From Defluviitaleaceae bacterium (GTDB taxonomy: Bacteria > Bacillota > Clostridia > Lachnospirales > WQUN01), in contig WRGY01000127.1 of NCBI GenBank assembly GCA_009786925.1, forward strand, positions 113,010-177,009: DNA of 64,000 nucleotides. The letters run 5' to 3'. A program made the translations under genes and the position numbers. The notes under the pieces were generated by a model. That model was given only the letters and a program-made list of their open reading frames with translations, made no database searches and was not told where the DNA came from. Shown piece by piece: positions 3,401 to 45,415 of the stretch (position 1 is the first letter of the stretch; every line of letters begins with the position of its first letter).

Positions 3401-6400
3401 CCGCTTGCAGAGTTTCCGGCGGCACCGGGGTTTACACCCAGTCTACGGTCTATGCGTGTTACTGCATAAAACGCACCTTCCAGCATTGCATCTCTTGTTG
3501 CTAATGAGTTGGTGCTGTGGAGGCTGTCAGGTGGCAAAAGCATAACATTCCAGTTGTAACCTGTTTGTTCGATACCATGGGAGTCGTCTGCCGAAAGTGC
3601 CCAGACATTACGACCTGCGGGCATCGTTTCCATGAGGACGTTATCCCACAAAATACGGTCGGAGCGAGTTTCGCCGTCTGCTCTGTTGTAAAGCTCAAAG
3701 CCTAAAACAGAATAGAACATTTTAAACCATGATGCATAGCCTTCTACCATCAATGGGTTGTTAGAAGCACGCATACCCAGTTCGAGGTCCGGCTCTTGGC
3801 CTCTAAAGTTTCCGGGCCAGTCACGATGTGCCGGGAAGTATGGGCTGTCATACCATGTGTGTCTGCCCGGGTGAGCAATCATTGTTACGCCGCCAAGCTC
3901 TTGTGCGCGACGGAAAACACCATGCTCTTCGTTGTGGTTGTGGTCGTGAAGTGGTGCGGGTGCTTCCATTGTGGCACGCTGGGGTACACTTTGTGTAAAG
4001 TTAGCCCAGTAAGTGTTGACGTGATTCATATAGGTTTGTTCGTTTGCATATGGGATGGGAGCCATTCCGCGTTCGGATTGGCTGCTATGCCCTGCCAGTC
4101 TGCGAGCGAGTGTCCTGTGTCCGCCATTTGTCATAAAGAGAGATGTCGGGAACGGGCCTGTAAATGTTCCGTCCAAAACAGAATCGCGCTCTTCTATTGT
4201 CATTTGATGTGCCGGGTTACGCCAATCATTTGGCGGCCACCAGCTCCATGTCCTCGGGGTAGGCCCGACGGCACGCACCGACCAGTCGCCTGTACATATT
4301 ACGTTGTGGTCGGTTACTGCAAGTATGTCAAATCCTTTGTTAAAATGGTCTGCCACCGTATCCCTAAGCAACGCATTACCGTCCGAACGTGTTGTGTGGA
4401 CATGAAGTGCGGTACGGAACTGGTAATGTGTCGCCCAGTTGACGGATGCATATGGGTTTGTGATGGTAAAGGGACCTGTCATCGTAGGGTTCAATGCTCT
4501 TGCGGGGCATGTGCAGTTGTGACTGCCTGAGAGTACACACCATGTGCAGTAGTCGTTATCACAATGTGGGTCGCCGTCACAACGATGTCCGCACTCGTCA
4601 CAACACTCGCCGCTGTCATCACAGTCGTCACAGTTGGGGCCGTAGGAGGGTTCACATTCCGGCAAATCACAGCCGTCGGGACAGATGCGCACGACGCGGA
4701 TTTGGGTATAGGTTGTGATTTCAGACGCGCCTCCGGGGTTAGAGGATAGAGAAATCGTTGCATTACCCATCGCAGTGATTTGTGCCGCTGTCCATGTTAC
4801 GGAGTGGGTAAACTCTGCACCTGCCGCAGCGGGTGCGCCGTCGATTACGGTTCCACCTGCAAGGCCAACAGGGGCACCGGTTCCGCCCTCTACTCGTATA
4901 CGAGGCGTAACAGCCGTCGCGACTGATGCGGTATATTCAAGTCTGTAATAATGGTCATCAATGGGACTGTTTACAGTGGCGAATGCAGCAAGGTTAATGC
5001 GTGGTGCTTGACCGACACCACCCCTGCCTTCCAGCACTATAGTCCTCGGCGGACCCGCAGTTACCGTAAGGCCAACACCGCTACCCAAATGCGTGCTTAA
5101 CCAACCACCGGTGGCTGAAGCAGCGATATTATTTCCCGATAAACCCGGAGCAATCCCGGGATGCGTCTGCATATCGAAGAGAATGTTCTCTGCGACCGGA
5201 GGCTCACACGCCGGTAGGTCACAGCCACTCGGGCAGATACGCACGACGCGGATTTGGGTATAGGTTGTGATTTCGGGCGCGCCTCCGGGGTTGGAGGATA
5301 GTGAAATTGTTGCATTACCCATAGAAGAAATTTGTGCCGCCGTCCATATGACGGAGTGAGTAAACTCTGCACCTGCCGCAGCGGGTGCGCCGTCGATTAC
5401 GGTTCCGGGGGCAACGGGAGCTGCACCGCTTCCACCCTCTACTCGTATACGAGGTGTAACAGCCGTCGCGACTGATGCAGTATATTCAAATCTGTATTCA
5501 TGTCCGTCAATAAATCCGTTTTCGGGGGTGAGTGCGGCTAGGTTGATACGTGGTGCTTGACCGACACCACCTCTACCCTCGAGTACAATCGTCCTTGGCG
5601 GACCCGCAGTTACCGTAAGGCCAACACCGCTACCCAAGTGTGTGCTTAACCAACCACCGGTGGCTGAAGCAGCGATATTATTTCCCGATAGAGCCGGAGT
5701 AATCCCGGGATGCGTCTGCATATCAAAGAGTACTACCTCTCTGGCAGGGCCGGTGGAGCAAGATGCACAGCTACCCGGGATTGACAGCTCTGCATGTATA
5801 AATCTGTGGAACTCTGCCTGCCCGCGGTGGTTGCTGACAAGAGCGGTGGTATCGTTGGGCGAAGCAGGGTCGGGCTGGTTAGTCGTCAGTGTGACATAGA
5901 TGAAGCTTGCAACATTGTCCGATGCGTCAATGAGCATCTCTCTCGGGATGCTATTATTCATCGGAGTTGTGTTGCCTGTGCGCATCCATTCGCCTGTGAT
6001 ATAGCTCGTGGAAAGGAGATGGTCAGTGGTCTCATTGCCCGGTGAAGAGAGGTCTGTCCATATGGCAAGTCTTCTCGTGGCGTTCACGAGACCACCGTCG
6101 TTTGTGAAATTGAGCGAAACATCGGTGGTTGCACTGTTTAGCAAATCTACAAATGCCTGTTGTCCTGCTGTCGGAACGTCGATTGCAAGTCTCAAAATGT
6201 GGCCGACATTATTAGCACCACCCGGAAGCAAGAAAGCCACATCGGCATCCCTGTCACCGACAGGGTTAAGTGTCCATGAAAAAGTGCAGTCGGGGCAAGA
6301 AGCCGACAACGGCATAAAACGAGCAATGACAAGTACATACACTGTCGCTTCAGCAAAAGCCACCTGTACGTATTCCACGGTTTCTACACGCTCGGGATGT

Positions 6401-36024: not shown

Positions 36025-37599
36025 ATGATTGATATATCGGTTAATGGGTTAAATAAATATTATGGCTCAAATCATGTGCTTCGTGGTATCACCTTTGAAG
36101 TTTATAAGGGTGAAAAGGTTGGACTATTGGGCAAAAATGGTTCAGGTAAAACAACACTCTTTAAAGTTGTTGCCGAGGATGAGCCTTATGACAGTGGTAG
36201 CATATCAAAGGCATCGGGCAAAAAAGTAGAGATTCTTGCACAGATGCCGATATTTGGCGAAAACGACACGGTGGACGATGTTCTGCGTTCGTCATTCGCA
36301 GATATTGCAGAAATACATGAGTCCATGAAGAAAATCGAGGGCGACGGCAATCCGTCCGTTTTGAAGCGTTATGGCAAGCTGATGGACGAGTATGAGCGGC
36401 TTGGCGGGTATGATGTAGAAACAAAAATAGAAAAAATATGTAATGGAATGGGTATTGGCGAAAATATGCGGCATGGGTTGTTTAGCTTACTAAGTGGAGG
36501 TGAAAAAACCAGAGTCAACTTGGCGCGCATTCTTCTCCGCGATTGCGATATTCTATTGCTCGACGAGCCGACCAACCACCTTGATTTGGACTCTTTGGAG
36601 TGGCTGGAAAATTTTATTAAAAAGTTTTTGGGGACGGTTGTGATTATTTCTCATGACCGAGTTTTCCTTGATAATGTGGTGAGTCGGATTATCGAAATCG
36701 AAGATGGCGAAGCTAATTTTTATTCAGGCAATTATACTTTTTATGCAGAAGAAAAAGAGCGACGCTATCAAACCCAAGCAGAGCAGTACAAACAGCAACA
36801 GCGTAAAATTGGACAACTGGAAACGGCAATCAAACGGCAACGTGTGTGGGCGGCAATAAATCCATCAAATTCAAGCTTGGCTAAACGCGCTCTGGCTATG
36901 GAAAGGCGCATCGAGCAGATGGAAAAGGTGGACAAGCCCACCACATCACGGAAAATGGCAGAGGATTTTAACAGTGGAGGCCATGCGGCAAAAGTGGTTG
37001 TGTCGCTTGATTTGGTGCGGAAGTCCTACGGCTCCAATGTGATTATTGATGATGTCAGCCTTAGTATTGACAGGAATGAACGTATTGCCCTAATCGGCGC
37101 GAATGGATGTGGCAAAACCACTCTTTTGAAAATGATTATGGGTGAGGAAATGTGTGACAGCGGTACAGTCAAAGTGAGCAGTAATATTAAAATTGCGTAC
37201 ATGCCCCAAATCATTGTGTTTGACGATTCAAATGCAACGGTACTCGATACTCTGCGCAATGCCGCGCCGCTTCCCGAAGAAAAACTGCGAAGCATACTTG
37301 CACGCTTTAAATTTAAAGCACCGGATGTAATTAAAAAAGTCGGCAGTCTTTCGGGTGGCGAAAGAAGCCGACTAAAGCTCTGTTTACTCATGCAAAACCA
37401 AGCTAATTTTTTGATTCTTGACGAGCCGACAAACCATCTCGATATTGAATCAAGAGAGTGGATTGAGGATGCTATTGAAGATTTTAACGGCACGATGTTG
37501 TTTATTTCTCATGACCGATTTTTTCTGAGCAAATTTGCTACAAAAATATGGAGCATGAGTGGAGGCGGGGTCAAATACTGCCACGATGAAGCATGGTAA
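36025..37599 (+). CDS. ABC-F family ATPase (possible ribosomal protection / antibiotic resistance type)
   Basis: Two ABC domains: GLLGKNGSGKTTL...LSGGEKTRVNLARIL and ALIGANGCGKTTL...LSGGERSRLKLCLLM; no TM segments. Confidence 0.93.
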   Translation: MIDISVNGLNKYYGSNHVLRGITFEVYKGEKVGLLGKNGSGKTTLFKVVAEDEPYDSGSISKASGKKVEILAQMPIFGENDTVDDVLRSSFADIAEIHESMKKIEGDGNPSVLKRYGKLMDEYERLGGYDVETKIEKICNGMGIGENMRHGLFSLLSGGEKTRVNLARILLRDCDILLLDEPTNHLDLDSLEWLENFIKKFLGTVVIISHDRVFLDNVVSRIIEIEDGEANFYSGNYTFYAEEKERRYQTQAEQYKQQQRKIGQLETAIKRQRVWAAINPSNSSLAKRALAMERRIEQMEKVDKPTTSRKMAEDFNSGGHAAKVVVSLDLVRKSYGSNVIIDDVSLSIDRNERIALIGANGCGKTTLLKMIMGEEMCDSGTVKVSSNIKIAYMPQIIVFDDSNATVLDTLRNAAPLPEEKLRSILARFKFKAPDVIKKVGSLSGGERSRLKLCLLMQNQANFLILDEPTNHLDIESREWIEDAIEDFNGTMLFISHDRFFLSKFATKIWSMSGGGVKYCHDEAW

Positions 37600-41999: not shown

Positions 42000-42272
42000 T
42001 CAAAATAAATCGCTGTGCGTTCCTGTGCGTGTTAATTCCAAAATCAACTCTTTATCCTTAACCTTATAAATCAACAGCCAATCAGGGGTTATGTGTAACT
42101 CTCTATGCCCCTTATAATCGCCCTTTAAGGCGTGGTCAAGATATTTCGGCGGTATAGGTTGCTCGGCAGATAAGATGTCAAGCACTTCCTCAAACAGCCG
42201 TGTATCGTAACCACGCTTTTTGATTGTCTTGTAATCTCTCTTGAAACGTGCGGAGTATCTAATCGTCAGCAT
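42000..42272 (-). CDS. YafQ-like RelE-superfamily toxin
   Basis: MLTIRYSARFKRDYKTIKKRGYDTRLFEEVLDILSAEQPIPPKYLDHALKGDYKGHRELHITPDWLLIYKVKD. Confidence 0.93.
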   Translation of the reverse strand: MLTIRYSARFKRDYKTIKKRGYDTRLFEEVLDILSAEQPIPPKYLDHALKGDYKGHRELHITPDWLLIYKVKDKELILELTRTGTHSDLF

Positions 42273-42531
42273 CTAAATCCTCCATCAGTTCCTTTACGCT
42301 ATGAAATTGCCTGCTCATGTTGCGACCCATGTTTACATCTTGAATCGCCGCAAGGGTTTCTTCATTGGGGATATTTAACCTCATCTCAAAAGGAATCCCT
42401 CTCGAACGTACTGTTTGCCGTAAAAACACGGTAAGGGCTGTAGACATATTTAGCCCTAATTCATTAAAAATTTCTTCCGACTGCTTTTTTAAGTCTGCAT
42501 CAATACGGACGTTTAGATTTGTGGTTGCCAT
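42259..42531 (-). CDS. RelB/DinJ-like antitoxin
   Basis: MATTNLNVRIDADLKKQSEEIFNELGLNMSTALTVFLRQTVRSRGIPFEM; overlaps the toxin start. Confidence 0.94.
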   Translation of the reverse strand: MATTNLNVRIDADLKKQSEEIFNELGLNMSTALTVFLRQTVRSRGIPFEMRLNIPNEETLAAIQDVNMGRNMSRQFHSVKELMEDLDADD

Positions 42532-44395: not shown

Positions 44396-44812
44396 TTAAT
44401 CCTCCAAATTCCAAATCCAATATATTGATTTATCAATAAGGCAATCCAGCAAGAATGCAACTCGACCGGGCGTGGAATCATTTTCCGAGATATAAAAACT
44501 ACCGCATAGCCCATTATCCTCATCATGAGTAATCGCAAAATCAAATTCCGGGTATATGGATTCTATATTTTTAGCAATACGCTTCATTGCTTCTTGCACA
44601 TTGGCATTAAGACTTATAGATTTATCAAATTCAAGCTTTATGCAAATTCCTTGGTCAGCCAGCAAAACCTTGTACATATAGTAATTGAAGGAAACAGGCG
44701 TTGACATACAATTGTTTTGTTCATCAACCTCCCATTTTAATGAAATAGGCATGGTTAGGCTTAGTTGCTTAATCACATCACTAAAGAATGCTGTCGCAGA
44801 TGCTACTATCAT
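44396..44812 (-). CDS. Hypothetical protein in the glycan operon (138 aa)
   Basis: ORF with GGGGATAAGGAT RBS-like sequence inside the 22-bp repeat. Confidence 0.6.
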   Translation of the reverse strand: MIVASATAFFSDVIKQLSLTMPISLKWEVDEQNNCMSTPVSFNYYMYKVLLADQGICIKLEFDKSISLNANVQEAMKRIAKNIESIYPEFDFAITHDEDNGLCGSFYISENDSTPGRVAFLLDCLIDKSIYWIWNLED

Positions 44813-44826
44813 ATCCTTATCCCCTT
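44805..44826. repeat. 22-bp direct repeat, left copy, flanking the TA cassette
   Basis: ACTATCATATCCTTATCCCCTT. Confidence 0.98.
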
Positions 44827-44827
44827 G

Positions 44828-44855
44828 TTGATAGTTTTTTTGAAAGTGGTATAAT
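44828..44855 (+). promoter_or_regulatory. SigA-type promoter of the TA cassette
   Basis: TTGATA-N16-TATAAT. Confidence 0.75.
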
Positions 44856-44880
44856 GTGGGCGTTAGGAGGTGCCTTAGTT

Positions 44881-45105
44881 ATGGTAAAAACGAAAAATAT
44901 TAATATTGAGATTGCTCAAGATATATACGAAGATATATTAAACCACTCCCAACTTTTTGGGTTTAGCATATCTGAATTTGCTGTCGATGCACTGCGAGAG
45001 CGGTTGGAGTATCTTGAGGACGTTAATGCACTGCGCAACAGAGATAAAAAGGAGCCTCGTGTTTCATGGGAAAAAGTCCAAAAAGATGCAGGACTGTTGC
45101 TATGA
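44881..45105 (+). CDS. Antitoxin of a RelE-type TA module
   Basis: MVKTKNINIEIAQDIYEDILNHSQLFGFSISEFAVDALRERLEYLED...; ATGA overlap with the toxin. Confidence 0.75.
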   Translation: MVKTKNINIEIAQDIYEDILNHSQLFGFSISEFAVDALRERLEYLEDVNALRNRDKKEPRVSWEKVQKDAGLLL

Positions 45106-45365
45106 GATATACACTGGAGTGGGAGCGGAGAGCTGAAAAAGAATTTAGAAAGTTGGACAAATTGACCCAAAGGCAAATCCAAAAATTTCTAAATGAGGTT
45201 GCAGAAAGTGATAATCCAAGACAAAATGGATATGGATTAAAATATGAGTTGTCGGGATTTTGGAGATATGATATTGGCTCATATCGCGTTATTTGTGAAA
45301 TTGAAGACGAAATACTTGTGGTAGTAGCTGTAAGGGTTGGCCACAGAAGAAATGTATATAAATAA
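45102..45365 (+). CDS. RelE/ParE-family toxin
   Basis: MRYTLEWERRAEKEFRKLDKLTQRQIQKFLNEVAESDNPRQNGYGLKYELSGFWRYDIGSYRVICEIEDEILVVVAVRVGHRRNVYK. Confidence 0.93.
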   Translation: MRYTLEWERRAEKEFRKLDKLTQRQIQKFLNEVAESDNPRQNGYGLKYELSGFWRYDIGSYRVICEIEDEILVVVAVRVGHRRNVYK

Positions 45366-45393
45366 TTACTAAAGTTGAAAGAATGGAGGCTTG

Positions 45394-45415
45394 ACTATCA
45401 TATCCTTATCCCCTT
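45394..45415. repeat. 22-bp direct repeat, right copy, flanking the TA cassette
   Basis: ACTATCATATCCTTATCCCCTT. Confidence 0.98.

Follow-up and report, generated by a model that had tools for sequence, protein, structure and literature searches.

A compact toxin-antitoxin cassette that probably entered a glycan operon by duplicating 22 bp of its target

How solitary toxin-antitoxin (TA) pairs enter chromosomes and move between them is a long-standing question, to which the usual answer is merely 'horizontal transfer'. The locus considered here, in a 64,000-nt stretch of the genome of a gut bacterium of the Defluviitaleaceae (contig WRGY01000127.1; hereafter, the window), raises this question in a concrete form: a TA cassette lies antisense to a glycan operon, between two of its genes, and the same 22 bp stand on either side of it. 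The features concerned, in window coordinates, are as follows.

44396-44812, minus strand: 138-aa orphan gene, downstream of the insertion, with its start codon inside repeat copy 1
44805-44826, no strand assigned: direct repeat copy 1, carrying on its minus strand the Shine-Dalgarno (SD) sequence and ATG of the 138-aa gene
44827-45393, plus strand: 567-bp TA cassette (37% GC) enclosed by the two repeats and lacking terminal inverted repeats
44828-44855, plus strand: promoter-like site, TTGATA-16-TATAAT with an extended -10 TG, a consensus match only
44881-45105, plus strand: antitoxin gene, 74 aa, weakly RelB-like (NF048017, E = 1.2e-3, under the curated cut-off)
45102-45365, plus strand: RelE/ParE-superfamily toxin gene, 87 aa (PF05016, 6.4e-14; TIGR02385, 5e-8; solved structures PDB 2khe, 1.8e-19, and E. 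coli RelE, 4v7k, 2.8e-6)
45369-45401, minus strand: 10-codon orphan open reading frame (ATGATAGTCAAG...TAG), seen in the sequence, a dead remnant of the duplicated start codon of copy 2
45394-45415, no strand assigned: direct repeat copy 2, carrying on its minus strand the glycosyltransferase stop codon
45406-47469, minus strand: 687-aa glycosyltransferase family 2 gene (PF13704), upstream of the insertion, with its stop codon inside copy 2

By the family match of its toxin, the cassette is a type II TA pair of the RelE/ParE superfamily, with a putative antitoxin. The toxin scores above the curated cut-offs of both profiles (52.7 bits against 23 for PF05016; 33.3 against 27.9 for TIGR02385). 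The pair resembles other members of this superfamily (PF05016; PDB 2khe and 4v7k) in its antitoxin-toxin order, in the ATGA overlap of the two genes and in its toxin family, but differs from them in its antitoxin, which falls under every curated family cut-off (19 bits against 50 for the RelB-like profile). Open reading frames and family matches together bear out the original prediction, which had an antitoxin and a RelE toxin overlapping by ATGA on the strand opposite to the operon. It had also placed a promoter 2 bp past the repeat; a promoter-like site is indeed present (11 of 12 consensus matches: a -35 TTGATA at 44828, a 16-nt spacer and a TATAAT ending at 44855), except that it starts 1 bp past the repeat. 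The claim that the cassette encodes no transposase or recombinase also holds, in that its 567 bp contain only the promoter and the TA pair and leave no room for a recombinase.

If the flanking sequence belonged to a dispersed family of the REP or MITE type, or were a regulatory motif present at many operon junctions (the case that had been named as refuting the prediction), we would expect to find it elsewhere. A sequence search recovered ACTATCATATCCTTATCCCCTT as an exact direct repeat (22 of 22 bp, 589 bp from start to start) at the two predicted positions, with no further occurrence in the window (100 shuffles gave an expectation of 0) and no third copy across the 2.28-Mb, 127-contig genome when up to 3 mismatches were allowed. 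The genome total is two copies only, and both of these possibilities therefore fail.

The content of the repeat indicates what it is. Read on the minus strand, as AAGGGGATAAGGATATGATAGT, it holds the stop of the 687-aa glycosyltransferase gene, an SD-like run and the start codon (ATG) of the 138-aa gene. Removing the cassette and one repeat copy in silico yields ...AAAAAAAGGGGATAAGGATATGATAGTAGCATC..., in which the flanks, rejoined through a single 22-bp copy, form an ordinary tight operon junction in which a purine-rich SD stands between the stop of the glycosyltransferase (TAA) and the ATG that opens the 138-aa gene; the joined sequence is thus the one that had been foreseen. Since the repeat is the neighbours' own stop/SD/start junction, it represents the target itself and not the end of a mobile element, and the insert is accordingly surrounded by a direct repeat of its target. 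And because it holds the stop of the upstream gene together with the ribosome-binding site and start of the downstream gene, both neighbours are intact, again as anticipated: after insertion, the glycosyltransferase kept its stop in copy 2, and the 138-aa gene kept its SD and start in copy 1.

One could attribute such a repeat to chance or to misassembly, given that the assembly is incomplete (127 contigs) and that 22 bp is longer than a small assembly k-mer. We consider this highly improbable. Shuffling predicts no such repeat, random pairings of the flanks of TA loci produced an exact repeat of at least 15 bp in 0 of 2320 cases, and the repeat coincides with a functional gene junction; moreover, similar scars occur in records from named isolates, among them a Tychonema isolate and a Planktothrix record of chromosome size.

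The most direct counterpart of the rejoined junction would be an empty, single-copy allele in a relative, and none was found for this site. No relative of the 138-aa gene turned up in 146 related genomes; the 687-aa glycosyltransferase has relatives in only 1 of 95 other related genomes (G022), where a different gene follows it; and no genome in either search has the same two neighbours. These searches also bear on the possibility that the insertion first took place elsewhere, and that homologous recombination along the glycan cluster then brought in, from a relative, an allele already occupied by the TA pair and complete with its 22-bp repeats. Glycan clusters are often exchanged, and the GC content of the cassette (37%) matches that of the neighbouring genes (36-38%) as opposed to that of the window (44%). 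Against this stand the lack of any relative with the same neighbours and the fact that allelic transfer only moves the origin of the repeat elsewhere, with a step of target duplication still needed. We therefore regard such a transfer as unlikely.

Other features of the window deserve mention in their own right. A second TA pair, with a RelB/DinJ-type antitoxin and a YafQ-type toxin, lies at 42000-42531, at the downstream end of the same glycan/ABC-exporter region and co-directional with it, and has no flanking repeat of at least 12 bp. A 17-bp direct repeat (36644-36660 and 37502-37518, 858 bp apart) was rejected as an insertion scar, being the ISHDR motif that recurs in both ABC domains of an ABC-F-like protein. 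In an apparently repeat-rich coding region, positions 4688-5701 hold a tandem duplication whose period is about 549-552 bp.

To place this locus among others, we surveyed 117 RelE/ParE/YafQ-type toxin loci, including that of the window, from related genomes of the same family and order, and asked of each how long an exact direct repeat it has whose two copies lie on opposite sides of the toxin (within 700-bp zones and at a spacing of at most 1100). A repeat of at least 15 bp straddled the TA pair at 8 of the 117 loci, or 7 of 116 without the window. Among the controls, this length was reached at 9 of 1420 pseudo-positions in twenty 20-kb stretches of the same genomes, around 1 of 150 small non-TA genes, and in none of the 2320 swapped flanks; without the window, the excess has p = 8e-5 relative to pseudo-positions and p = 0.02 relative to small genes. 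Two of the loci were dropped, one (L013) because its 107-bp repeat belongs to a dispersed family of about 20 copies and the other (L097) because its repeat lies inside a gene, which leaves 5 of 116; the excess over pseudo-positions then has p = 0.003, but that over small genes weakens to p = 0.09. Of a further 25 toxin relatives, drawn from GTDB genomes (mostly cyanobacteria and Bacteroidota), 6 had such a repeat, against 1 of 135 control positions within these loci (p = 5e-5). Fewer than six independent events underlie this second figure, since a single aspS insertion, seen in related genomes, accounts for two of the six and two others are not clean: the repeat at L198 has many diverged relatives, and that at L208 falls in a repeat-rich, low-complexity stretch, so neither was counted as a target duplication. 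One further candidate, a 16-bp repeat at L022 with copies 1345 bp apart, had a tRNA-like look, and no tRNA was found there.

Dispersed repeats of two kinds were encountered along the way. At L164 and about 20 other places in G033 there is a dispersed 107-bp hairpin repeat family (predicted -33.7 kcal/mol) that is MITE- or REP-like, and an element of about 118 bp (G015:C10:48305-48421) occurs at many places in G015, G024, G021 and G029 and is thus common to several genera of the family.

As in the window, the repeats at other TA loci often hold the start codon, terminator or 3' end of a neighbouring gene; the names secA, prfB, rny and aspS used below are those that we take these genes to bear, having recognised them from sequence without a database match. 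At L021, where the TA pair sits between secA and prfB, the 17-bp repeat is the start of prfB; relatives have secA and prfB adjacent without a TA pair, but with a different intergenic sequence. The repeat at L116 (about 60 bp, 93% identical) comprises a terminator, the SD and the ATG of the downstream gene (MKEQ), and that at L054 (about 88 bp) comprises the stop codon and terminator of the upstream gene, with the last codons of the toxin within it and with three copies around an array of TA-like genes. A TA-like gene array split by three copies of an 88-bp stop-plus-terminator unit, with a truncated antitoxin copy at its end, was also noted at L184 (G015:C10, 2484-5010). At L034 the repeat is 15 bp of the terminator after a rny-like gene, a case complicated by its left copy, which doubles as the border of a 300-aa gene unit that recurs elsewhere in that genome at 94% identity. 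A duplication of the 300-aa gene and its upstream edge, at about 94%, is seen at L034 and L162 (G031), the homology ending about where the 15-bp TA-flanking repeat ends.

In Tychonema and Microcoleus (L203 and L209), a YoeB-type TA pair follows aspS, and the last 113-121 bp of aspS are repeated, in exactly two copies per genome; relatives of this locus align only to the end of aspS. The 104-bp repeat at L080 is likewise present in two copies in its genome, and L191 (57 bp) and the Planktothrix locus L214 (189 bp) have unique two-copy repeats. Repeat lengths among relatives thus extend from 15 to about 190 bp. In ten cyanobacterial genomes, related YoeB-type cassettes with 81-92% nucleotide identity over about 500 bp occupy different places, and are flanked by different, unrelated repeats or by none.

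This diversity bears on two mechanisms in which the cassette would have been moved by a dedicated enzyme. A transposase acting in trans, such as that of an IS1202-group element, might have mobilised a MITE-like TA cassette. Insertion sequences of this group make 16-28 bp target duplications (PMC10132070), a range that includes the 22 bp observed here. However, they carry terminal inverted repeats and a transposase, and the window cassette has neither: the best alignment of its ends scores 5, which 91% of shuffles equal. Its ends (GTTGAT.../CAAGCC) are not of the TGT type, and no second copy of the cassette was found in the genome. Because inverted repeats are missing and repeat lengths are so widely spread, we judge transposition in trans to be quite improbable.

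Alternatively, the repeats could be crossover sites of the att, dif or attC type, as in a Xer/pdif module, an integron cassette or a small integrative element. TA genes are common passengers of pdif modules; those of Acinetobacter are, like the cassette, small TA-bearing units bounded by repeated sites (about 28 bp), and the aspS case resembles integration into the 3' end of a gene. But the Acinetobacter modules have XerC/XerD-binding dif-like sites in common, whereas the window repeat is unique and is the junction of its neighbours. Its match to dif is 13-14 of 28, which is background (random mean 13, maximum 17) for a B. subtilis-type dif query, no other copy of the 22-bp site exists in the genome, and the cassette contains no recombinase. 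Since each TA locus has its own, wholly different repeat, site-specific recombination is disfavoured, and we would assign it very little probability. A search of viral contigs found no relative.

Duplication of the target is, at the same time, not universal among TA loci. In E. coli, a species with thousands of strains open to direct comparison, we compared four loci (yefM-yoeB, dinJ-yafQ, mqsRA and higBA) with strains lacking the TA pair, leaving out prlF-yhaV, for which there was no usable empty allele. None of the four showed a clean duplication. In the empty alleles, the TA pair was replaced by about 206 bp (yefM-yoeB), about 225 bp (dinJ-yafQ) or 5 bp (mqsRA), with no repeats, and at higBA the overlap at the junction was a REP-like sequence, so that replacement, a simple gap or a REP-associated junction took the place of a duplication. 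Target duplication at TA loci is therefore enriched rather than universal.

Taken together, we think it likely that a compact RelE/ParE-type TA cassette with its own promoter inserted in antisense orientation between two genes of the glycan operon, duplicating 22 bp of the target. The original prediction offered two readings. That of an unusually long target duplication is well supported, on the strength of a unique two-copy repeat consisting of the neighbours' stop, ribosome-binding site and start, and of similar scars enriched at other TA loci. That of a minimal autonomous TA insertion unit is unsupported, because nothing in the 567 bp could catalyse movement, there are no terminal inverted repeats and the genome has no other copy.

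A possible course of events under target duplication is that an incoming linear TA fragment was captured at a staggered break, formed when the opposite strands were nicked about 22 nt from each other, and whose gaps were filled in and ligated; template switching during break repair could have had the same role. In either case, host enzymes alone might have carried out the capture or repair. The insertion may have persisted because, with the target duplicated, neither operon gene was truncated, and because an exact deletion from one repeat to the other would take the antitoxin with it, a loss that the toxin would punish. Selection thus probably shapes which insertions survive, given that many scars keep both neighbours functional and that precise deletion would be penalised by the toxin.

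There is a precedent in restriction-modification units, which are reported to insert with a long, variable target duplication and no mobile element (Nobusato et al. 2000, as cited in PMC3874152, PMC3031569 and PMC4978471). The similarities are an addiction-type gene pair, a direct repeat of the target, no transposase and a repeat length that varies by locus. The differences are that the cargo here is a type II TA pair of 567 bp, that the duplication is 22 bp as opposed to the order of 100 bp, and that no strain-level empty allele was found for this site. A literature search returned no paper extending long target duplication to TA pairs, which is weak evidence, as subscription journals were mostly uncovered.

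Given a clean scar whose length is known and which falls at a defined gene junction, and an excess of scars at other TA loci, the question of how TA pairs enter chromosomes becomes testable. The excess looks like a real, little-documented route of chromosome entry in which the TA pair needs no transposase of its own, and duplication of the target by TA pairs would unite them with restriction-modification units, the other addiction genes reported to insert in this way. A bolder version, about which we are rather doubtful, is that type II TA cassettes in general act as minimal mobile units free of any transposase, entering chromosomes again and again by one shared mechanism, with duplications of 15 to about 190 bp and with the toxin itself selecting cells that keep the insert. 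If true, this shared mechanism would be the general means of spread of solitary chromosomal TA loci.
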